Origin: Quercus robur
Taxonomy: Eukaryota > Streptophyta > Magnoliopsida > Fagales > Fagaceae
Reading direction: 5' to 3'
Assembly: GCF_932294415.1 (NCBI RefSeq)
Contig: NC_065543.1
Location: forward strand, 21,652,508 to 21,716,507
DNA length: 64,000 nucleotides
In this document: piece after piece, positions 1 to 63,500 of the stretch
Position numbering within the stretch: the first letter of the stretch is position 1
Layout: each line of letters starts with the position of its first letter
Translations under genes and position numbers: made by a program
The notes under the pieces: model-generated
What the model was told of the DNA's origin: nothing
The model's database searches: none
Seen by the model: only the letters and a program-made list of their open reading frames with translations

Positions 1-2515
1 TTGAATCAGTCCATTAAATGCGTCTTTAATCTTCTTGGATCTTGCTTTAGTAAAAGGCTCAACTGGAACATGCAATGGATCCTTGAATGCTTGTTGATTC
101 TCATCAATATTCTTTTTGCCCATGAAATTATAGATACTCTAAAGAAGAAGAAGGGTAGAAATATAGGATATGGAGTTCTAAAAGTTGACATGTGCAAAGC
201 TTATGATAGGATAAGTTGGAATTTTCTTAAGGCAGTTTTGATCTCAATGAATTTGGCAATTATTGGGTCCACAGGATTAAGGAATGTGTTTCCTCAATGC
301 AATATGCTCTACTCCTAAATGGAAGTCCTACACAAACCTTCCTTCCTACTAGAGGAGTCAAACAAGGGGACCCAATCTCCCTCTATTTGTTCTTGTTATG
401 TGCCAATATTCTGTCAATTGCACTCATACAGGCTGCAAGCCAAAAGAAAATTAAAGGAATCAAATTAGGTAGAAATGGACTCTCTTTCACACATCTCTTC
501 TATGTTGATGATTCCTTATTTTTCTTCCAAAATGATAGACAATCTTTGAACAATTTGAAGGTCATAATTCTTTGGTATTGCCCCCTCTCAGTTCAAAACA
601 TCAATTTCACAAAATCTGATTTGTTTTGCTCCCCTAATATCCCTTCTTCTATTCAGGAATCCTTAGCTGATGCCTTGCGGGTAAACTTAGTTCAAAATCC
701 TAGCAGATACCTAGGTTTGAACTTTAAGTTAAGAGGTAGGATAGTAGCAGATTTTGAGGATTTGGTAGAGAGACTACAAGCAAAACTTCAGGGTTGGAGT
801 GCAAAATTGTTTTCTCAAGCAGGCAGAGCAACTCTAATATCATCAGTGCTTTAGTCCAGGCATTTATACACCTTTTCCTACTTCTAAGTTCCAGAAGCAA
901 TTTGTAACAAACTAGATGCCATGATTAGAGACTTCTGGTGGGGGCATAACAATGGTACTAGGAAAATGCATCTAATTAGGTGGAACAAAATATGCAATCC
1001 TAAGAGTAAGGGAGGACTTGGTTTCAAAAGATTCAGTGATTTTAACCATGCAATGCTAGCCAAACAGTATTGGAAAATTCACAACAACCATAACTCCCTA
1101 CTAACTAGAACCTATAAAGCCAAATACTTCCTTAGGACCCCTATAAAAGAATATGCTCCCAAGTCATATCATTCTTGGACCTGGAGGGCCATTGCAAATC
1201 CTCAAAGTATAGAGCTGCATCAAGGAAGATGGATAGTGGGGGCAGGGCACCAAATACCTCTCACCCATCCTAACTGGTTTCAAGCTCCAAGTAATACCTT
1301 AAGGGAGCACAATTTGACCAATGGAACAGTGGCTGACCTTATAGCTCCTAATCCTAAGTCCTGGAACTGTAACCTTATAAGAAAACTATACCCACACCCT
1401 ATCTGCACAGAAATTATGAAAATTCCTATTCCTAAAACAGGTGACAACCCTGATAAGCTAGTTTGGAAATTCTCAAAATCAAGGGATTATAGTGTGGCTT
1501 AGGCTTACTCTCTTTTACAGCAACTCCAAACCACATCCACAGTTAGTAATCCTAGTCCCCCACAAATATCTCAATCCAATTGGAAGCTCTTCTGGAAGGT
1601 TAAACTGCCTACTAGAATTCTCACTTGTGTTTGGAAAATTATGTAGGACAACTTACCTGTGTTTGAGATCCTTCATAGGAGAGGTGTCATGAACACTTCT
1701 AGCTGCCTGATGTGTGATTCAGAGGTGGAGTCTACCTCTCATCTTTTCTTACAGTGCAATTTTGCAAGAGCTGTTTGACATGGCTCAACTCTTGGAATCA
1801 TAACAATAGAGCTAAATAACTTATCAGTTAAGTAGTGGATATGGAATCATATCAACAGAAATTGGATCACAATCAGTGTAAAGATGGAGCTTTTGTAGGC
1901 TGTGTTCACAAACCTCTGGTCAATTTGGAACCATAGAAATATGGTTCTTCACAAAAGAAGGGTCCCAAACCCATTGGAAGTTGTGCTAATGTCCCAATCT
2001 CTTATTTGCAGGTACAGAAAGGTGTTTCAAACTCACCAGGATCAGAGGTAAAGATACAATCCAAAGCCAAGTATTTCCAATCTCACTCAAAATTGGCAAG
2101 TCCTCATTAAGGTGGTAGCTTCCAGGAATAGGAGAGCAAAAAGATGTGGCTTTGCATTTAAAGCTAGGAGGATGGATGGTGCTCTACTAGTTAGAGGTGG
2201 TGCTAGCTGTGGAAGACCAACTCAATATCCTGTAGCTCAAGAAACTCTAGTGGAGGCTCTGATCAAACCAAGCCTTGGCAATGGATCCTCAAAATCTTCA
2301 CCAACAGGGTCTAATCACTCATTTTTTTGTTAGTTCCTAATGTAGTGATAGGCCAGGTTTTGTATCTAGCTGGGAAAGCCACAAAATTCCCTGTCTAATG
2401 CTTCCAGCAATATATGTCTCTTAATGACTAATCCTTGTAGTTTGACTAAACTTTGTAGTCTCTAACTTTTATCTTATAATAGCTGTTGACTCAGTTTTTA
2501 CCAAAAAAATAATAA
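1..2515 (+). pseudogene. Decayed L1-type LINE, 3' part (RT, zf-RVT, RNase H-like)
   Basis: Remains of LINE ORF2, cut by the left window edge and broken by several stops and frameshifts (for example near 315, 855, 1500 and 1625). In order: RT core (KVDMCKAYDRISW at about 183-222; TRGVKQGDPISLYLF at about 349-393; YVDD in place of the usual FADD at about 503-514), the thumb-like ARYLGL/GWSAKLFSQAGRATL region to 850, a zf-RVT region with FWWGHNNGTRKMHLIRW (about 933-985) and CLMCDSEVESTSHLFLQC (about 1705-1755), then a short RNase H-like remnant (2100-2330). It ends in a polypyrimidine/TACCAAAAAAATAATAATAAT tail at about 2500-2515. The order and motifs are those of plant L1 elements. It cannot be active. 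Confidence 0.85.
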
Positions 2516-42500: not shown

Positions 42501-45500
42501 CTATCCTTGAATTAAAGCCTTTTTCTTCATTCTCCTCAATGTATTACTCTTTTAGATATATTTGAGCATTTTAATCTGAATTAATTGTACTTTTCCCTGA
42601 GTACACCCCCAGTGTACTTGGTATGTTTTCTTTTAAAATATATTTTTCATTACTTATATAAAAAAAAAAAATTCTGAACAATTGAGACCTTTGAATATTG
42701 GTGCCATTTAGAAAATTCTCTTAAATTAAACACACACACGACATTCCTGTGCTCCTCTCTTTTGTAGCTTCAGGTTCAATGTTATATTTTGATGTAGTTA
42801 GTGAATTCCTTAACTTCTTTCTGTTGGTGGTGATCTAGAAAGCACGGACGCGGCTGGGAGGGTGCTGCACCTGTGTCCGACGCGGCCCGACGTGGGACGC
42901 TGCGTCCGACGAGGTTGCCCGCGCGTCGGTGCCGCGTTTGAGTTTTTTTTTTTTCTCAGATTCGGGCCGACTCGGCTCGATTCGCGCTGACGCGGCTTGA
43001 TTCGCGCCGAATCGGCTTCGATTCGCTTCGAACTAGGCTGATTCGGCTGGAATCGGGCTGTATCGGCCATATCGGGTCGTATCAGCCGGCGACCGATACG
43101 GCTGAAACATGCCAAAAAAGGCCGAAATCTGCCTTGAATCTGGTCGGAAAATCCGAAATTCTCACCTTAGAGGCATATTAATGTGTTTCTTGCCTTCTTC
43201 TTTCTTTGTTTTGTGAATCAAAGTATAGTAATGTGTTTTTTAAAAATATTATAATAGTAAAAATATATAGAAAATATGAATGAAAATATTTTTAATAATT
43301 TTTTAATCGCCGAGTCCTGCCGCACCCGCACCCTACTTTTTCAAAAATTGCCAAGTCTTGCACCCGCACCCGCATCCGCACCCGCACCCGAGTCCCGAAA
43401 CGCACCCGTGCTACATAGGTGGTGATCCTTGTCTCACTGGTAGTCTCCATATTTCTTTCAAATAAAGTAGAATTTCATTTTTGATTGCTCTCATAACAGA
43501 CCTACTGCTCATCAATGATCTTGCCTTTTTTTTTTTTCACACGACTTATGATTGGTTAGTCTGAAGTTGTATCATTAGTGAAGCACCAGCAGGATTGAGA
43601 CTTAGAAGACAGGATTCTTCTGCTGATACATATTTGAAGGATTTTTATTTTATTTTTTAATTTTTTTTATCAATTGGTTGAAGGCAATTGGGGGTGTCAA
43701 TTGTTCTCATTTCTGGAATTTTAGGTGTTTGTAATTTTTCATATTAGTTATTTTTCCTTCTACTTTTCTTATGCTAGGATCTCACTCTTTTCTTTCCTTT
43801 TATAAAAATTTTACTATTCATTTTTTTTTTTTTGATAAGTAATAAGAATATATTAAAAAGAAGAGGGGTGTCACCTGAGTATACAGGAAGTATACATCAA
43901 GAAGTATACATCAAGGGCATATACAAATCAAGTGCCAAAAGTCAAAAGTCCATGAAACCATGGATTGAAGAAAAAGAACGAAAACCAAACACTGTAACCC
44001 AATCCAGAAGAGTCTTAAGGAAGAAGAGTTTAAGATCTGCAATTGATCTCTCTAAGTCCTCAAAATGCCGGTTATTCCTCTCCCTCCAAATGCACCACAT
44101 CAAACAATGGGGCAAAGTCATCCAAATAGCCGAATTCCGATGCCTCCCCCAACTTTCCTTGCCAACAAGCCAATAGATCCACCACTGTTTTCGGCATGAC
44201 CCAATGAATGCCAAATAGAGTAAACACCATAGACCATAAATCAAAAGCAATAGGGCAATGGATAAGGAGGTGGTCAACAGATTCTCCATTTCTTTTACAC
44301 ATACAACACCAATTCAAAATCAAAATCTGCCGTTTCCTAAGATTATCAATAGTCAAAATATTCCCTAAAGCTGCAGTCCACACAAAAAAAGCAACTCTAG
44401 AAGGGACCTTAGACTTCCAAACAGTCTTCCAATGGAAAGACTGATCGACACTATTAGTCAGCACCTGGTAATTGGAACGAACAGTAAAACCTTTACCCTT
44501 AGCAAGATTCCAACACATCTTATCGTCCCCAACTCCTTTCAAAGAAGCTCCATAAATCCTAGACATTAAACTGTAGAAGGATTCCAAATCCCAATCTTCG
44601 CTGTATCTTCTAAAAGTTAGATCCCAAAAAATAACACCATTTGGGAACTTCATCAACTCAGCCACAGAGGCCTCCTTATTTCGACTTAACGAAAAAAGTC
44701 TTGGGTAGAGCACACACAAAGAAGCGTCCCCACACCAAATATCCTGCCAAAATCTAACAGTAAAACCGGCCCCAACCTCAAATTGGATGTGACGAACAAA
44801 AGATGGCCAACCACGACTAATAGACTTCCACAAGCTTACACCATGAGGGCCAATAACAGGAAGAGTGCACCAACCTCCCCCTTCACAACCATATTTTGCC
44901 CCTATCACTCTCCTCCACAAGGCCTGTCGCTCATTCCCAAATCTCCATAACCACTTTCCGAACAAGGCTTTATTAAAAGTTCTCAGACTTCTAATAGCTA
45001 AACCTCCAGAATGAAGAGGAGTGCAAACTGTGGCCCATTTCACTAGGTGAGTTTTCTTAACATCCCCTATACCACTCCAAAGAAAATTTCGTTGAAGTTG
45101 CTCAATATGGTTCGCAACCTCCACAGGGATAGGAAACATAGAGAGAAAATAAGTTGGAAGATTGGACAACGTACTCTTAATAAGAGTAACTTTATCTCCT
45201 TTTGAGAGATACATACATTTCCAACCTGCTAACCTCCTCTCCACCTTCTCCAAAATTGGATTCCAAACAGATCTATCTCTGACATTAGCACCCAAAGGAA
45301 GACCTAGGTACTGCATTGGAAAGGAGCCTTGCTTGCACCCTAGCACATCCACCATATCTACTAAATTAGGAACCACACCCACGGGGACCAAGTCAAATTT
45401 GCCCATATTAATATTCAGCCCAGAAACTACTTCAAACCAAAACAGCACCAGCCGGAGAAACAGAATCTGACCAAGATCAGCATCACAAAAGACTAGGGTA

Positions 45501-48500
45501 TCATCGGCGAATAGAAGATGGGACACCTGCAAAGAGTTCCCTGTAGGACCCACCCTAAAACCATACATGAGCCCATCCCTCACTGCCTTATCCAACATTT
45601 TACTAAAAGCATTCATAACAATGACAAACAATAATGGGGACAATGGATCACCTTGTCTTAAACCTCTAGAGTTATCAAAAAAACCACATGAAGATCCATT
45701 AATGAGAATGGAGAATTTAACATTAGAGATGTAGAAGAAAACCCATCTTCTCCATTTATCATTTTAGCCACAACGATCCAACATATAAATGAGAAAATCC
45801 CAATTTACATGATCATAAGCCTTCTCTATGTCCAGCTTACACAACACCCCAGGAACTCCTGACTTTAGCCTACTATCTAAGCATTCATTGGTAATAAGAA
45901 CAGAGTCTAAAATTTGTCTTCCTTTGACAAAGGCATTTTGAGATTCGTGAACAATATCCCCAAGCACCATTTTCAACCTGTTAGCTAAAACTTTAGCAAT
46001 AATTTTGTACACTCCTCCAATTAAACTAATAGGCCGAAAATCCCTTACCTCCATTGCATCAGCTCTTTTAGGAATTAAAGAGATGAAAGTAGCATTCAAG
46101 CTTTTCTCAAACTGAGCATTATCAAAAAAAAATTGAAAAACCTCCAAAAGATCAGTTTTGATAATGGCCCAACAAGCCTGAAAAAACGTCATAGGGAATC
46201 CATCAGGTCCAGGAGCTTTATCACCATCAAAATCCATGACCACTCCAAAAATCTCAGCTTCCTCAAACGGTCTTTCCAACCAGCCAGCCTTATCCTCAGA
46301 ATCTTCGAAAAATTCAGCACATCCGGATGAGGACGAATGTGCTTATCTTCCGAGTAAAGACTTTTATAGAACCGAACAATACCCTCTTCAATAACTTCCT
46401 GATTAGATGTCAACACTCCACCAAAGATTAAACTGCCAATACTGTTACTCCTTCTATTAGAATTAGCTATTTGGTGAAAGAATTTTGTATTGCTGTCCCC
46501 CTCCTTTAACCATAGCACCCTTGATTTTTGTCTCCAACTAATCTCCTCCAACAACACCATCCTCTCAATCTCCAAGCGAATTCTCTCTTTATCGCGCTTC
46601 TCATCATCAGAAAGAGATACCCTCTCCTCTTTAGCATCCAGAGCAAGTGCAATCGTCAGTAATTTTTTTTTTCCTCACTTTCATATTTCATTTGTCATAA
46701 CACATTATGAGCCATTATTGTATATATTGGAAGTTGATTGATTTTGACCAATGTAGGTATTAGATAGGGTTCCTTTGCATGTCTATTATATTCTAAAATC
46801 TGGGAGTGTTTCAGGTAAAGCTGAAGTATCTTCTGTTGTTTATAAAGTTGGCGAATGCATGCAAGAACTGATAAAGTTGTGGAAGGAGTACAAAGCATCA
46901 CAAGCTGAAAAAAATGGAGAAAGCTCTTTAAACGGTCCTACGCTTGAAATCCGGATTCCAGCTGAGCATGTTACCGCTACAAATCGCCAAGTAAGGTCAA
47001 ATGCTTCATGTGTACATGACATTGATTAATAGCTTTTTGTAACTTGCATAAGGTCATTTTCAAAATGTTCTGCAAACTCTTTACTGGTTACAATTTTTTA
47101 CTTTTGGGAATCTTATGGGCTTTATTTTAGAATGTAATGGGTCAATTGCCTGTAGGTTTTATTGGTTATAGGCAAGTCCAAAGGGCTCATCATTAGAAAG
47201 GTTCCCTACATTATCCAAAAAAAAGTCTAGATCATCATTCCGTCTATCATGAGGAGATCTTGATAATCATAAACTTGTAAAAGTGTCCACAGAAAGCAAC
47301 TCACTCAAAGCTAAAATGCTAAAACTGTTGATAGAATACTTGTAGTATCCTGAGCTAACTAGCTAACCAGTTAGTCTATTCCATGCCTTCAAAATATTTG
47401 TATGTTTGGGGGTGGCTGTTAACCAAAGCCAGCAAAGAGTGTAAAATAAAACTGAAGACCTCTATACAAACTAGATAAAACATAAAATAAAATACTAAGA
47501 ACCTAATTAACTACACTAAGCTCCTATTCTTGTACTTTCCCTTAATCTTAGGCTTCCAAAGAGGATATTTTCCTCTAACCACACTATGGTTGTGCCATAA
47601 CTCTGTGTCTACCTATTTTCAAGGATCATTGCCTTTTGTTTTGGTTCTGTAAAGAACAAGAATTTTGTATGACAGGAGTCTTTAAAATGCAGAGAGATTA
47701 TGGTAATCTGATCAAACAGCTTGAACAGTAATCTGGCCAGTTCCCATTTGAAAGTGAAAATAAAGGCTCATCATTGGTATGAGTAGTCTGGAATTATTCT
47801 AAGTTTTAGTAGCTTGTGGAGGCTAATGGAATTTTATATCCACAAATTAAAGGATGTATAGAACTTGGTATTGGGTTCTTCTATGGGTGCACTGATCTTC
47901 AACTGGAGTTGCACACATCCTTTGCTGAATGGAAGGGTTCAGTTAGGAGATGATTCTACTTAAAACATTATGCATATGAGCTCTAGTTCAAATGGTACCT
48001 TCCATTGTTCAAGTAAGGTGGAGGGTGGCCAAGAGTCTTGTTGCTCAAATGGGTCCTGGTGTTTCCAAGTGAGATGTCCATTGTTCAAATCCCTCCACCC
48101 CCAACTATAAAATTATTAAAAAAGAAGGTAAGCTGGAGGGTGAGACTGTGGGTTCAAGATACGCCAGGTGCATCTGTGACTTACTAATAAAAAAATATTA
48201 CTTGAGGCATAATATGATCCTCCTTATGACCTATTCCTCTTTTCTTTGGCATATTGTATTGTTTGAAGGACTCCTTGGCTATTCTTCCTTTTGTTTATTG
48301 CTTTTTCCTAAAACAAAAAAAGAAAAAGAAAAAAAGAAAAAGAAAAAGAAAAGAAAAATGTATCAACTGCACAAGTAGTTATAATGTATCATATGTGGCT
48401 TTGATTTTCTCAAGGAGAATCTCTCTCGAAAATTTGTGTTGGACAAGGAGTTTGTGTACGCTTGTTAAGTTGGCTAGAAACAGAAGAATCCTTCACTGTG

Positions 48501-51500: not shown

Positions 51501-54500
51501 GAGCCGTTAAGAGTATTCTTGCTTCTTGTCAATAGTCTTTGGGTGAAATGACATATCCCCCCATATTGGAAATGGTTGGAGGGTGAGTTCAAAGGTTCAA
51601 TTTGGTATGGCTGCATGAGTTGTGCAACCCATCAAAACAAGGGAATTTTTGCTCTTCTTTTATGAAATTAATTAATTGCGGTGAAAGAATGACTTTTTTT
51701 TTGCTCCTTGTGGATCAATATCTTTCTTTGCTCTCTTCCCATTATTGCCAGTATCAGAGTTTGGGGTTGCAACTTCAATATACGCTTCTGTTAGCCATGC
51801 TGTATATTCATTCTTAGTTATTTAAGCCATTATGTGCAGGTCAGAGGTGGCCAGCTATGGGGGACAGATATATACACTGATGACTCAGATCTTGTTGCTG
51901 GTATGTGGTACTATGAATAGCCATAGAGTTGGTACTGTTCATCATTGAATATGGTGAATGCGAAAACTGATTTTGAAGTTCTTGTATTCCAGTTCTGATG
52001 CATACAGGTTATTGCCGCCCTACTGCTTCCCCTCCTCCACCTGCTATCCAAGAGTTGCGTGCTACAATCCGAGTGCTACCTCCACAAGATTGTAAGTCTA
52101 TATTCAATTCTACCTTGATTTTCTGCATAAATTAATGTTTGAAACACACTGTAGTCCTGTAATACATGGGAGTTTGACAATATGAGTGAGATGCAGATAC
52201 TGTAGTGCTTTAAGTTTATACCTGAAGGTTTAATTGGTTATTCAGGTCAGGAAAATGTAAGTGTTTTAGGGATTTCAAGGCTGTAAGAGAAGTTTTATGG
52301 GATTCTGATCAAATCTGGCAAGAGAAGAATTATTTTAGAAGCTTATTTTCTCCAGGTCTGGTTATAGGTTGAAATGGTTGCAGATAGTGCAGATTTGAGT
52401 AGAGAGGAAGAATGAAAGAGAGGTTTCCAATATCACACATTAATGGAGTTTCCAGTTATAAATTTCAATAGAACAAAATTTAGGTATAGTACCTTAGGTG
52501 TTTCTTAGCCCTTCTTAAGATTTAGACATGTGGTTACTTAACTAAAAAATACACTTTCATTTCATAAAAAAAAATTCACGTGGTAGAATCTTAAGAGTTT
52601 AAGGAACAGCACTTAAGTATTGTATCTAAGTCTTGCCCATTTCAATTACACTCCTATCCTCAAATGTGGGAGAATTGTAATATAGATTGGAAATCTTCTA
52701 ACCCTTTGATCAAGCAGGTCCTGTTCCTACATTATGGTTGTCACTTGGTAACCTCTGGCCCTCCTGGCTTGAGGCTTCAGTTTTAATTATATATGAAAAT
52801 TAGATTCCTAATCTGTAATTGTAAGCAAGTTCCTAAAATTCAGTTGTTATTATTATATTTACGCTCCATTTATTTCACTGTAAAATATATTCAGATGTAA
52901 AACCACCACCAACCACCCAAAAATCCAGATCAGAAAGCCAAAAAAAAAAAAACCCACAAACCCTGATCGGAAACCCAAAAACCCAGATGATCTGAAAATC
53001 TAACAACCCAGCAAACCCAGCAGCAGCTAGATTGGCGAGATTGAAGCAGCCACCAAAAACCCAAGACAGCTGCTCACCAGTCGGATCCCAAGGGACTCTG
53101 CAAGAGAGGAGAATGGATAGTAGAAGGGTTTGTGCAAGGAAGAGGCGGTGATGAAGGTTGGTAGCGCTAATGATGGTGGGTGGCATCAGTGGAGATGGTT
53201 GGCCTGTGTGAGATGCGTGAGAGAGCTGAGAGGGTTATGCAGGAGCTGAAATATGGGTGAGAGAGCCAAGAGGGTGAGAGAGCTGAAATATGTAAAATGT
53301 TTTACGTTCATTTTGAGCGCAAGCGTTTTACATGTTTTTTTTGCATTGGGTTTTACCATTGACTGAAAATATTTTACAGTTGACCAACCATTTTACAACA
53401 AAACAAACACTGTAAAATGTGTAAAATATTTTACTAAAAACATTTTACAGCGAAATGAATGGAGCATTTATTAAATTTAGGTTTTACCTTATTCCTGCCA
53501 TTGCAATTTTTATGTTTATCTTTTGATCAATTCTACTCATGTTTTGTTTGTGTAATTCTAACACTTTACTACTAACTTTTTTATTAGGTTACATTTCCAC
53601 TTTGAGAAACAATGTTCGTTCACGTGCTTGGGGTGCGGCAATTGGTTGTAGTTACCGTGTTGAGCGTTGCTGCATTGTGAAGGTTGTAAAAAGTCTAGTT
53701 AGATTCTCTGTTTTTTCTGTTGTTGCCCTCTGGAGTAGTTATGGAATTCCTGTAATGCTTCTTGATTTAATTTCAATGATGATTGTATAAATTTTTGGTT
53801 TAATGTTAGTTTTATTTGACTCTGTAAATGGTATCTCTATTTTTAATCAGTAATCTAAACACACAGATCGGCAATTTAGGAAATTATTGCAATATTGTTG
53901 GCCTGGAAATCTTGATGTTTTATCTTACATTTTTTTTTTCTTTTGATTTCAGAAAGGAGGAGGAACGATTGATCTTGAGCCTTGTCTTACACATACATCA
54001 ACAGTGGAGCCTACCCTTGCTCCAGTGGCTGTTGAGCGGACAATGACTACTAGGGCCGCAGCTTCGGTATTACCTGACAGCTTCTCTTCAACTAACTTTT
54101 TGGACTTATGTTCTTAGTTGATTTTTCTGCATGTTAGAACTTCTTTTACATGGCTGCCTACATTATCAGGATTTTATTTTATTTTCAACATTTCTACTTT
54201 TATGCTAGTGTAGAGCAAAAGGTTTAACAGTGGGTCCATAGCTCAGTGGTTGAGCATTTGACTGCAGATCAAGCTAGTGTTGATGCGGGAGACGCAAGAA
54301 GATTATTATTTAGTATTATTTATGTTTGCAAGTCAATTGTATTTTTATGTTTTAGGTCCTAGTAGTTTATTAGGCTATTAGTATTTTAATTTGGAAGTAA
54401 GGTTATTTTTGTAATAAGGCAATTAGGGTTTCCTAGTCAATTAGAACTAGGGTCTAGCAATCCTTTATAAGCAACCTATTGTACTCCTTGAGAAGATAAT

Positions 54501-57500
54501 TGATATTTTGATAAATGAAAAAAATGGACGTTTGGTTTCTTTTGGTCTAGTGCTAACTCCAGGTTCACCCTAGGTGTTGACTTCTAGTGGTTTCCTCGCT
54601 TGGTGTTGACTCCAAGCAAGGCTTAGGTGCTGACTCCTAGGTCATATCCCTCTATTTATTTATTTTTGTTTAGTTTTGTTCTGGTTGTCTTGTGTCATAT
54701 TTGGTATTAGAGCAAACATCGATCTGTCTGAAGCATCCCGTAGTCAATCCGGAACTAGAAAAATCACAAAAAAAAAAAAAAAAACCCATCACTGCCGTGT
54801 TTTCCACCACTAGAAAGTTATCTTTGTCATTTCCCTATTTAGTACCAAAAAGCTGTCCTATAGTTGTGCTATCCATCAGAAGACCAGATATTCAAGCCAA
54901 CCAAAGACTCCAATCCAAAAACCCACAATCAAGTCTCCAAATCCCTTGCGACCACAAACATAGAGAGGAGAAATAAGAGTGCTGCAATTGTGCCACACTA
55001 CCATCAACAAGCAACCACGTTCAGATTTGGTTGAATCCTTTCACGACAGTTGCTGTGCATGCCACCACCACCACCTCTGTGAGCCGCCGCTTTGACTGGT
55101 CCTCACCGTCACCTCTGTTCCGCGCCGCCACGATTTTAGTTTTGCCCAGTGTCACGCCACTGCAATCTCATCAGCCTCCATCGATCCGATCTCATGAGGT
55201 AACCCACTAGCCTTGTCTAAACCCATTCTCATTTAAAAAAAAAAAAACCATCAAGCTGGCCCGACCCACTTTTATAACCTAGACCATTTCCTAATTCGAC
55301 CCATTTGTTAATCAAGTTCCCCTCTCTTGCTTTCAACACATCCAATTAGGAAGCCTTTTTTGATTTTAGTATTCCCTGACCCAGTTCAATTAAAACGAAC
55401 CAACCAAAGTCATTTTTAAACCCAAGCCTTTAAGTGAGTGCCCACTACTAGCCCAAAAAAAAAAAAATCAAAACCAATTAACTAAACAGCCCAGTCCTAT
55501 ACCCATCCATTGCAAAACCCACCCTGGCTCAATTTAAAAAACATATAAGCAGTCATATTAACCCATTAAACCCAAAAGCCATCCTGTGCACATCAAGTGT
55601 TCTTCAACTTCGAAATTTTCCATATCGATGTTTTGTGACTCCAAGTTTGAGCTGAAAATGATTGCCATTGATAGAGAATTTGAGAAGGAGATTAAGGAGG
55701 CTGGGAATACACTCCTTAACCCTCCTTCCTCCATTGATGATCTCCTCACTCTTCTTGATAAAGTTGAAAATTTGTTTATGTGGAGAAAGAACCATCCAAA
55801 TCAATGTGAGATGCACTTTTACCCTCAGTGAAGGCACTAATCACTAATAAACTTTTGTGACATGTTGAAATGGATGTGAAGGTTTTAGTTTTATCTTGCA
55901 TTATTGAGATTACAAGGATAATAGCACCAGATGCCCCATATAAGGATGAGCAAATGAAAGAAATATTTCAATTGATTTTGACAGCATTTGAAAATATGTC
56001 TCATGTGTCTACTTGCTCTTGTAAGAAGGTGGTTTCAATTCTTGATAACATTGCAAAGGTTAAGTTATGCTTGGTGATGCTGGATCTTGAGTGATGCATT
56101 GGTTGTTGAGATGTTTCAAAGTTTCTTGAAGATAATTAGGTCCAACCATCCACTTGTTGGACTTTCAGCCATAGAAACAATTATGAATCTGGTCATAGAT
56201 GAAAGTGAAGACATTTCCTTGGATCTTCTCAGTTCACTTTTTGCTAGTGTAAAAAAGGAAAATCAGAATGTTTCACCTATTTCGTGGAAACTGGGAGAGC
56301 AAATAATCACTAGGATTAATGCCCAACTAGAAAAGATAATGGCATCCACCCAAAAACTACCCAGCAAGCTGGAGGGTGCACATGATGTGAAAATTGAAGT
56401 AGTTGAATGTGCTTCTAATCAACCCTCCATAGTGCTTAAAGATCTACATCTTGGTGAAGTCGAAGAGGTTAAAACTACATTGTTTCCTATGGTTCATAAG
56501 GTTCAAGATGAGATTAAATTGATTCCACACATTGATTTTGTTATTCCAAATGAGTTTGATGTGGTGGAATTCAAGGTTTTTTTTTTCTCCGTGCTCCCTA
56601 AGGTGATTCCAGACTTGAAGCAAGTGTTACTTGTCAACATTCTACTCCTTCAATGCTTTAAAACTCGAGGTTGAGTTTTCTCCAACCAGAGGAGAATGAT
56701 GTAGGAGACGCAAGAAGATTATTATTTAATATTATTTATGTTTGGAAGTCAATTGTATTTTTATGTTTTAGGTCTTAGTAGTTTATTAGGCTATTAGTAT
56801 TTTAATTTGGAAGTAAGGTTATTTTTGTAATAAGACAATTAGGGTTTCCTAGCCAATTAGAATTAGGGTTTAACAATCCTTTATAAGCAACTTATTATAC
56901 TCCTTGAGGAGATAGCTGATATTTTGATAAATGAAAAAAATGGATGTTTGGTTTGGTGCTGACTCTAGGTTCACCCTAGGTGCTAACTTCTAGTGGTTTC
57001 CCCGTTTGATGTTGACTTCAAGCAAGGTCTAGGTGCTGACTCCGAGGTCATATCCCTTTATTTTTCTGTTGTTTAGTTTTGTTCTGGTTGTCTTGCGTCA
57101 AGTGTAGACCAGAAGTTTAAGTTGTAAATAAGTTTATATTTGGGTCTGGGGTTTCTCATATCTCCAAGCTTGCAGTGCACTAGGATAATCTTTTTCTTCT
57201 TGTATAAGTGACACTTGTGAAAAATGATTTGCATGGACTATCTTAGAAGGCTTAAAACTTATTTGTTTCTTTGAATACACTAAGCTTGGATGAATTTTCT
57301 TAATTATAAATGTATTCTTGGGTAGTGGTAAATATTATTATTGCATTTTTTATAAGTATATTATTTTTGCATGGCGAATGCAGTTTTTAATTATGGTGGT
57401 ATGAACTGTGGATTGTGGAAAGGGCGTGGTGTGAAAGAAGTGTAATCCATATCCAATGGTGGACACTGACAAATCTTATAGTCTTTCTATTTTTAAGTTT

Positions 57501-60500: not shown

Positions 60501-63500
60501 ATAGATATGATGCTCATTTTTTGGTTCCAAAGAAAAATTTTGAGGAAAGAAATGACAACTTATTATTTTACCCTTACTATATAATAAATGAAATATACAG
60601 TCCAAAATATGTTTTGGTCCCTCTTAGTTTGGGTTTGCTGTCATTTTGGTCCCTTATGCTCTTCAAATGTCAATTTACCCTATCAACTTCGAGAGCACAC
60701 CTAATGTGCCCATTCCATCCATATTTGTTAAAAGTTTTCCATTAACTTCACTTTATCATTACCCATTCTTAAAACATGTTTACCCAGCATGAAATTGGAA
60801 CCCGAACTCTTAACTTATTCCAGGTTAAGAGTTTTTTGACCCTTACAAACCACCATATAAACCACTAAGGAGAAAAGTGCAAAAACATAGCCAAGCTTCA
60901 TTCAAATCCTCTTCTTGACTTGAAACTCATACCCAAACCATCAAACCCAGCTAAAGATTACAATTATTATTAAAAAAAAAAAAAAACTTCTATATTCAAA
61001 ACTTACAGTTTCCTATCCTTATCAGTTCCCTTAGCAATCAAATGAACAGAAATGAAACAAATGAGATATGTGTTTATTACTTTGTATTTTCTTCCATTTT
61101 TGAGCAATCAATGTAAGAATCTAATCTCTCTTTCCAAAAATTGCTCTTAATTTGAGCAATTTTGTTTTTCATAGAAATGGTTTCAGATTCCTTCTAAAAA
61201 GCTGCTCAAATCTCTCGGAAATGTAATCTGTACATCTGCTATACACAAATTGAACACAAACAAATGTTTTATTATCTTGGATTATAAAATCACACAAAAA
61301 AGAGAAGAAATCAAACTCTTTTAAATTTGAAATCTCTAAGATTGAAAATTCAACACCTCTCTCTAATTCTTGCTTTCAAGTGAAAATTAACCCAATCTTC
61401 TTCGCAATCAGCTACAGAAACCACGTTCTGAACTCTGAAACAAAAATTTACTCCAAAAATAAGTTATCATTTGAAGAGTAATATTAAAAGTCAGGTATAG
61501 AATTGAACTTGTACTTAATTACAAACCTCTCTCTCTCTCTCTCTCTCTCTTTATGGGGTTCAGAATCCAGATCCTCAGCCTTTTTGATACTGGTGGGTAA
61601 AAATAAAATTAGTGAAGTCAACGGAAAACTTTAACAGATGGGTGGAAGGGGCATATTGAGTTTGCTCTCAAAGTTGAGGGTGTACTGTAAATTGACAATT
61701 TTAGAGCACAAGGGGCCAAAATGACAGCAACCCCAAACTGAGGACAAAACATATTTTTACTATATGTATATCACAATGCTTGAATTCTTGTTTGAGCTTA
61801 TTTTTAGATGGTCAATGGGCTCTAGCTCAGATGACAGTTCCTCTCCGCTTGATAATGAAATGGAGAGTAAGGTTGTGGGCTCAAGTCCCATGGGGTGCGT
61901 AACTTATGTGATGGCTGTCTTCAAGCATTTTCACAGGTATTCAGTTTTTGAAAGGTCTCTTAATGCTTCTTTCCTCACACTTATTCCTAAGAAATCTGAT
62001 GCTGTCAATATTAAGGATTTTCGGCCTATTAGTTTGGTTGGCAGTGTTTACAAGTTGCTGTCTAAGGTGTTGGCGAATAGGCTGAGGGTGGTTTTAGACA
62101 GTTTGATCTCGGAGACCCAAAATTCCTTCGTTGGTGGAAGACAAATTTTGGACTAAAAGTGTTAATTGCGAATGAGCGCCTGGACAGTAGATTGAAGTGT
62201 AATTCCCCGGGTGTAGTTTGTAAGCTGGATATAGAAAAAGCTTATGATCATGTTAATTGGGATGCCTTGCTTTATTTGTTGAATAGGATGGGCTTTGGGT
62301 TGAAGTGGAGGAAGTGGATTAAGGCTTGCATTTCTATTGTTCGCTTCTCAGTTCTTGTGAATGGTTCTCTGATAGGCTTTTTGGGAAGCTCTCGTGGGTT
62401 GAGACAAGGAGATCCTCTGTCCCCTCTTCTTTTCCTCTTGGTTATGGAAGTTTTATCTCGGATCCTTAAGAAAACCGAGGATAGTGGTCTGCTTCGTGGT
62501 TTTCATGTGGGACCTGTGAACTCTATCGGGGTTCGCATATCTCATCTGCTTTTTGCAGACGATATTATTTTGTTCTGCGATGCTTCTAGAGATCAGTTGT
62601 TGGCTATTAGACTGGCTATGTCTTGCTTCCAAGCCTTTACTGGATTAAAGGTCAATGTGGGGAAGAGTGAGATTGTCCCGGTGGGGGAGGTTGGTAATAT
62701 TGATGCTTTGGCTAATATTCTTAGTTGTAGGGTGGGTAGCTTGCCCATGAAATATTTGGGCATGCCTTTAGGCACCTCGTACAAGACTGCATCCATTTGG
62801 AACCCTATTTTGGAGAAGAAGCTGGCTGGTTGGAAGCGTCTATATTTGTCTAAGGGTGGTAGGCTTACTCTCTTGAAGAGTACCCTCTCCAATCTTCCCA
62901 CATACTATCTATCCTTATTTACCATCCCTGTAGCTGTGGCTAACAGATTGGAGCGTATTCAGAGGAAATTCTTGTGGGGGTTTTCGGAGGAGTGTTTTAA
63001 ACATTCTTTGGTACTAGTCTTTGACCGAGGGTTATTGCCACCAAATATGGTGAGGGTCAAGGGGGGTGGACTACTAAAGCTTGGAGAAGGGCACACGGGT
63101 GTGGCCTTTGGTGTAGTATTAATGTCGGTTGGGAGAGGTTCTCCAAACACTTAGCTTTTGTGGTGAGTGATGGTTCTCGTATTTGTTTTTGGCATGATAG
63201 GTGGGTGGGGGATTTCTCTCTTAAATTGCTCTATTCTCAGTTATATGCGTGTTCTTGTGACAAGGAAGCCTGTATTTCTGACTTGTTGGTTCATTAGGAG
63301 GATGGGAGTGGTAGATGTTGGAATGTGAGATTTTTTAGGAATTTTCATGAGAGGGAATTTGAGGCTGCCTTCTCTTTCCTAGAACTCATTCAATCTTGGA
63401 TCCCAAGAGGTATTGGATGGGATAGACCCCATTGGTGCCTCAATAGGAATGGTTAGTTTGATACTCGGTCCTTCTATCATAAGATCAAGGGTTCAGCTCC

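Follow-up and report, generated by a model that had tools for sequence, protein, structure and literature searches.

How did the N-terminal part of PDS5, a regulator of cohesin, come to lie without its introns between the long terminal repeats (LTRs) of an oak retrotransposon, and is it of any use to the element that carries it? The locus is part of a 64,000-nucleotide stretch of Quercus robur DNA (contig NC_065543.1, positions 21,652,508 to 21,716,507), hereafter the window, in which a complete LTR element of 2820 bp occupies positions 54281-57100. Our analysis confirmed that a spliced fragment of PDS5 was captured by what is a single LTR element, and this particular copy is dead. With a probability of roughly 0.72, we read it as a copy of a non-autonomous Fagaceae LTR family where the slot that holds a gag-like frame in sibling elements is taken by host PDS5 mRNA, namely its N-terminal part, and where PDS5 most likely gives the element something.

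The element, its PDS5 insert and its family

The element carries the hallmarks of an LTR retrotransposon, i.e. paired LTRs (417 and 404 bp, in direct orientation, with TG...CA ends), a short target-site duplication (TSD), a site like a primer-binding site (PBS) and a polypurine tract. The PBS-like site is of a kind that we take to match initiator tRNA-Met. The original prediction, made from the letters of the sequence, had placed matching LTRs, an AGTGT duplication, a PBS-like site and a purine tract in one element; all of these are present at slightly shifted coordinates, and the two flanking repeats are LTRs of one element with a single shared AGTGT. Aligned over 403 sites, the two LTRs are separated by 27 transitions and 4 transversions, which gives a Kimura two-parameter distance (K2P) of 0.083. 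The predicted lack of gag-pol was also borne out. The sole stop-to-stop frame of at least 120 residues inside the element (56078-56674) consists of PDS5 plus a 3' tail and matches PDS5 in Pfam in its first part; the gag and pol of an autonomous element were absent among frames of this length, the C-rich segment lying outside the Pfam scan.

When PDS5 C/D-type proteins native to oak and chestnut served as tblastn queries, their residues 1-227 were matched in collinear order to 55658-56332. The alignment falls into three pieces divided by two shifts of frame, near 55780 and 56092, and it also contains two in-frame stops. Pfam PF20168 matched two of the pieces (4e-26 and 3.4e-8), and the third, of 56 residues, had no Pfam match. 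The PF20168 matches lay above the cut-off both for the window pieces and for four relatives, and of the 1053 profile positions the matches reached 201 in the window and 201-237 in the relatives. When compared with the Quercus lobata PDS5 LOC115989526 (P0124), 165 of 219 residues of the window copy were identical. We located the native PDS5 gene in the same Q. robur genome and compared its first part with the element. Across the captured stretch, coding exons 1 to 5 of the native gene are interrupted by four introns, whose lengths are about 2.4 kb, 143 bp, 1891 bp and 80 bp; the second, third and fourth have GT-AG ends. None of the four is present in the element, where the exons abut. Nucleotide homology starts 24 nt upstream of the ATG and ends in the middle of exon 5 at native residue ~221 of 794, so that the element holds far less than a full-length PDS5. 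Since the introns are lost and the junction lies inside an exon, a template switch on spliced mRNA is the probable origin. The collinear, intron-free PDS5 stretch with frame breaks that had been predicted at about 55670-56340 was thus found at 55634-56312; it does match a PDS5 gene, both by PF20168 and by alignment, and the exon-junction mapping proposed along with the prediction gave the absence of introns and the mid-exon end described above.

The genome assembly searched comprises 786 Mb in 42 contigs. A search with the LTR returned at least 46 matches (40 of 737 first-look candidates were scored), and a protein search with the 381-residue P0255 at least 113 (108 of 723 candidates scored), of which about 60, counted by hand, begin only at residue 217-250, i.e. 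in the tail. Near-full-length copies of PDS5 plus tail, the window copy included, numbered at least 18 among the matches listed, in agreement with the earlier expectation that other copies may exist. Thirty PDS5 loci were examined, and in every copy where both LTRs could be delimited (9 of 9, window included) a 5-bp TSD was present. The LTR pairs of these nine copies span a K2P of 0.0024-0.113, and the three youngest pairs (L037, 0.0024; L035, 0.0073; L032, 0.0097) enclose a PDS5 without stop. Over PDS5 residues 5-222, stops were absent from 9 of 17 near-full copies, one of which (L039) starts out of frame. Spliced host sequence is therefore found inside LTRs at several loci, as expected for a captured host gene, and the results show that the PDS5 element was amplified as a family. 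The loss of introns alone would equally fit an ordinary processed PDS5 pseudogene lying by chance between LTRs of different elements; this is refuted by the TSDs at all nine delimited loci and by the same PDS5-tail fusion in at least 18 copies, and we give it next to no weight.

Not all copies have the same LTRs. In L047 and L048 the PDS5 part lies between LTRs unlike those of the window copy (about 434 bp in L048), and on the branch leading to this pair the tail has changed by 0.35 and the PDS5 part by 0.02. When compared with seven other copies, the tails of L047/L048 show a dS of 0.34-0.56 and their PDS5 a dS of 0.14-0.19. Since the tails have diverged far more than the PDS5 part, PDS5 may have moved between subfamilies by recombination.

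Two local clusters were seen in the searches of this genome. Six LTR copies (L002-L007) on one strand at 3.12-4.36 Mb of contig C38, within 1.25 Mb, are 91-92% identical to the window LTR, which suggests a segmental duplication. A group of seven decayed PDS5-like places lies at ~25.03-25.24 Mb on contig C40 and could be an array that is older or has been duplicated; identity to the native protein is 58-61% in six of these and, across a shorter part, 73% in the seventh.

The position of PDS5 within the element was compared with two of the tail-only loci, L061 and L062. Each has a 382-residue frame with a gag-like start and with the same tail at its end as the PDS5 elements. Their LTR pairs are 100% identical over 162 bp in L061, where the 3' LTR match ends, and 99.4% over 330 bp plus 98.6% over 69 bp in L062. 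Element positions 1-504, 600-684 and 2092-2820 of the window copy align with these siblings by blastn, and because both flanks align, PDS5 appears to occupy the slot of the gag-like part. The first 104 residues of the sibling frame matched Pfam PF03732 at E 0.0058, under the curated cut-off, and among the beech relatives that have the tail, two are entered in the database as 'Retrotransposon gag domain-containing'. For the C-rich segment upstream of PDS5, comparison with L061/L062 and with the DNA that precedes native PDS5 gave only short low-complexity matches and no clear one. The comparison supports the view that the tail 3' of PDS5, which is in frame with PDS5 in open copies, belongs to the element and not to the captured gene.

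Selection on the captured PDS5 codons

Selection was analyzed with our own MG94-type codon script, in which separate values of w (dN/dS) were fitted to the inner and the end branches of the tree. For PDS5 in 16 near-full copies the inner branches had a w of 0.454 and the end branches one of 0.911, and twice the log-likelihood difference (2dlnL) was 10.7 for inner w fixed at 1, 0.35 for end w fixed at 1 and 6.0 for a single w. None of 80 neutral simulations on the same tree gave an inner w of 0.454 or less (lowest 0.47), and two 14-row subsets gave inner values of 0.434 and 0.437. The tail, analyzed in 14 copies, had a w of 1.15 on inner and 0.92 on end branches, i.e. no constraint at the protein level. 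Compared with the native gene, 16 copies had a dN/dS of 0.36-0.55 at a dS of 0.20-0.27. The window copy (L049) was kept out of the codon sets for its frame shifts, L044 and L046 out of the 16-row set, L047/L048 out of the tail set, L044 out of the larger 28-row set used below and L046 out of the pairwise comparisons by the NG86 method. The results show that PDS5 was under purifying selection as a protein while the copies were mobile and that it decayed almost neutrally after insertion, a signal that is weaker with 28 copies. Because it is constrained on inner branches and nearly free on end branches, PDS5 behaves as a gene of the element.

Several observations weigh against this interpretation. 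Extending the set to 28 copies by admitting decayed fragments raised inner w to 0.68 (end 0.89), the 2dlnL for inner w at 1 being a marginal 4.3, and one of the 80 neutral simulations reached a 2dlnL of 10.7 or more. Mean NG86 dN/dS over 136 pairs of 17 copies was 0.56 for PDS5 and 0.75 for the tail. The excess of third-position changes was mild over 120 pairs, with PDS5 differences per site of 0.080, 0.059 and 0.092 at codon positions 1, 2 and 3 (tail: 0.151, 0.109 and 0.140). The tests come from one genome and one tree, with recombination between copies being likely, and 8 of the 17 near-full copies have a stop within PDS5. The comparison of the gag slot, in turn, rests on two siblings, whose whole 382-residue frame matched no Pfam family at E 0.01 and whose gag match is below the cut-off.

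Some of these observations are what a passive passenger would leave behind, i.e. an mRNA captured by chance and amplified by hitch-hiking, with a protein that is never used and with open frames that mark young copies. The window copy is broken, as are the copies with stops, the selection signal fades when all 28 copies are included, and a review (PMC13317346) describes the capture of genes as common among plant LTR elements. A mere passenger is difficult to reconcile with an inner w of 0.43-0.45 in three overlapping near-full sets, a range not reached by the neutral simulations, with a w of about 1 for the in-frame tail, taken from 14 of these copies, or with the apparent further uptake of this host domain in beech described below, and we consider this explanation unlikely. 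Alternatively, the constraint could act on RNA or DNA instead of the PDS5 protein, as a packaging signal or as camouflage from small interfering RNAs by means of an essential donor gene. The same review (PMC13317346) considers that plant transposable elements may be camouflaged by important genes they have captured, and the tail is common to both sibling types despite having no protein constraint. Between L032 and L035, which represent two young groups, PDS5 has 4, 3 and 16 changes at codon positions 1, 2 and 3, and the tail 16, 7 and 9. This third-position excess in PDS5 and not in the tail is the signature of a protein, although it comes from one pair and the count over all pairs is milder. 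A constraint on nucleic acid in place of protein seems to us quite improbable.

The favoured explanation, that PDS5 serves the element as a protein, would involve the following steps. Transcription would be driven by the LTR, and the RNA would be packaged and reverse-transcribed by the proteins of another element. A template switch between element RNA and spliced PDS5 mRNA would then create the chimera. Its multiplication as a family is shown by the copies, and the codon analysis shows the PDS5 protein constrained during mobility and the copies decaying more or less neutrally once inserted, less clearly with 28 copies than with 16.

Related elements, number of captures and possible function

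A first protein search gave 298 matches; the 120 listed were mostly unnamed metagenome proteins, and the named members among them came from Lithocarpus litseifolius, Quercus robur, Q. suber and Q. lobata. Further protein searches added members from Castanea, and a scan of viral contigs produced 28 pattern matches and no relative. In Fagus sylvatica, where the relatives are known as proteins, the same PDS5 type with a longer captured part is joined to a homologous tail, other proteins join a second PDS5 paralog to a homologous tail, and mosaics of both types are also present. A tree was made after 7 of 55 rows had been dropped as recombinant, partial or chimeric and 40 columns of the native Fagus row had been masked. 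In it the 18 oak-type rows formed one clade (support 100/100) and the 7 beech-type rows another (100/99), and the second-paralog row P0254 grouped with a Q. rubra paralog (95/90). A joint clade of oak-type and beech-type rows had a p of 0.43 in the approximately unbiased test. An oak-type and a beech-type row are 70% alike, and they are 77% (oak-type) and 85% (beech-type) alike to the native gene; as the rows are closer to the native gene than to each other, separate oak and beech captures look likelier than one. Furthermore, three different 3' junctions, read by eye, were present across the oak-type and beech proteins. With these three junctions, one of them from the second paralog, the protein alignments suggest about three PDS5 captures in the oak-beech lineage.

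Element-type PDS5 is also present in public gene models. In the models P0018, P0134, P0211 and P0146 it occurs in a Q. robur 'PDS5 homolog D-like' protein (P0018), in a receptor-kinase fusion of Q. suber, in a protein of chestnut containing PF00982/PF02358 and in a fusion with reverse transcriptase and FF domains from beech; these may be annotation errors or insertions into genes. Some public gene models of oak, chestnut, stone oak and beech should therefore be used with caution, as they contain PDS5 from the element.

What was captured spans the N-terminal HEAT region, APDAP loop included; the remainder of PDS5 is absent. As described in two reports (PMC10656103, PMC4793087), a crystal structure shows a Wapl motif docked at the APDAP loop, and mutations of yeast Pds5 at this loop abolish or reduce the association with Wapl; docking of Sororin at the loop is an AlphaFold prediction, and an Arabidopsis Pds5-SA-Wapl complex via the Pds5 N-terminal domain is likewise predicted. 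The mobility of yeast Ty1 is increased in cohesin mutants (PMC4378997). The likeliest activity would be that the N-terminal module occupies Wapl or another partner of PDS5 and thereby weakens host control of cohesin. Tentatively, an oak-beech retrotransposon lineage could repeatedly have taken up the Wapl-docking module of PDS5 as an accessory gene, a cohesin decoy that, by relaxing the control of cohesin, favours integration or escape from silencing and is thus turned against the host. This proposal is doubtful as it stands. The APDAP motif varies among copies (TPDAP, APNAP, TPTAP and others), which weakens a role as Wapl decoy. Also to be counted against the main reading is the AlphaFold model, which is of low confidence (mean pLDDT 51) and gives weak support, its best PDB match being Pds5 5frp at E 0.017.

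Gene capture by plant LTR elements is already well known, and selection on captured sequence is not unprecedented. Bs1 of maize, compared here by its description in the review (PMC13317346), is likewise a plant LTR element with pieces of host genes, three in that case, and it later became a chimeric gene that is transcribed and translated. The oak element, in contrast, holds one domain of one gene in a gag-like slot, in many copies and with purifying selection between them. Large numbers of host genes have also been captured by LTR elements in rice and sorghum (PMC13317346, PMC7264820), and most of the ~1,235 captured rice genes are reported to be under negative selection (PMC13317346). Unlike the single genes of these catalogues, the oak domain was amplified together with the element and its constraint is confined to inner branches. 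The family also resembles terminal-repeat retrotransposons with gag (TR-GAG) and large retrotransposon derivatives (LARD), which are short and have LTRs and no pol. The siblings L061 and L062 keep only the gag-like frame, whereas in the oak element the host PDS5 domain replaces it. A host-derived domain that is kept and apparently useful to the element is known from Mutator-like elements with an Ulp1 domain (KIU/Vandal), as stated in the review (PMC13317346); these are DNA transposons with a protease domain, whereas the oak case is an LTR retroelement with a fragment of a cohesin regulator. The host PDS5 C/D-type genes, such as LOC115989526, represent the source type, from which the element differs by keeping residues 1 to ~221 of 794 fused to its own tail. 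Judged by titles and the beginnings of abstracts, in a search that most subscription papers lay outside, we found no publication on the capture of PDS5 by LTR elements in Quercus or Fagus. Captured host sequences in plant transposons often end as pseudogenes, and the PDS5 element departs from this by its slot, its amplification, its constraint and the probable repeat of the capture. This opens the direct question of whether a retroelement profits from interfering with cohesin.

Feature map and surroundings in the window

Table 1. Parts of the PDS5-bearing LTR element and its target site, in window coordinates.
Feature	Position	Strand	Basis
Target-site duplication AGTGT, left copy	54276-54280	.	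sequence; flanks computed
5' LTR (TGATG...TGTCA)	54281-54697	+	direct repeat
5' leader, in part common to two gag-type siblings	54698-54964	+	blastn against L061/L062
PBS-like site TGGTATTAGAGC	54702-54713	+	sequence
C-rich segment	54965-55633	+	blastn against L061/L062 and DNA upstream of native gene
24 nt matching native DNA just before the PDS5 ATG	55634-55657	+	blastn to native locus
PDS5 N-terminus as spliced coding sequence (native residues 1 to ~221), pseudogene	55658-56312	+	tblastn; Pfam; exon map
Linker past capture junction, outside matches to native exon 5 and gag-type siblings	56313-56371	+	
3' tail (LEGAHDVK...CFKTRG) common to gag-type siblings	56372-56696	+	sequence comparison
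Polypurine tract AGAGGAGAA	56688-56696	+	read in sequence
3' LTR (TGATG...CGTCA)	56697-57100	+	direct repeat
Target-site duplication AGTGT, right copy	57101-57105	.	sequence

Directly upstream of the element, at 54232-54272, lies what we take to be the 5' half of a tRNA-Cys-like sequence, placed between imperfect direct repeats of ~24 nt (GCTAGTGTAGA...; 54204-54280 and 57106-57125, by eye). It looks like a 3'-truncated retro-copy of a tRNA with its own target duplication, into the right-hand repeat of which the LTR element would later have inserted. A tRNA gene at 54232-54345 proposed by Rfam (29.7 bits) was rejected, since the tRNA-Cys-like half runs into the LTR and ARAGORN found none. Elsewhere in the window, a 5S rRNA gene or copy is present at 2836-2954 on the minus strand (Rfam 84.5 bits, full model length), and fragments of frames resembling the reverse transcriptase of long interspersed nuclear elements were recognized by eye at 231-1502 (+), 44072-46674 (-) and 61725-63154 (+).

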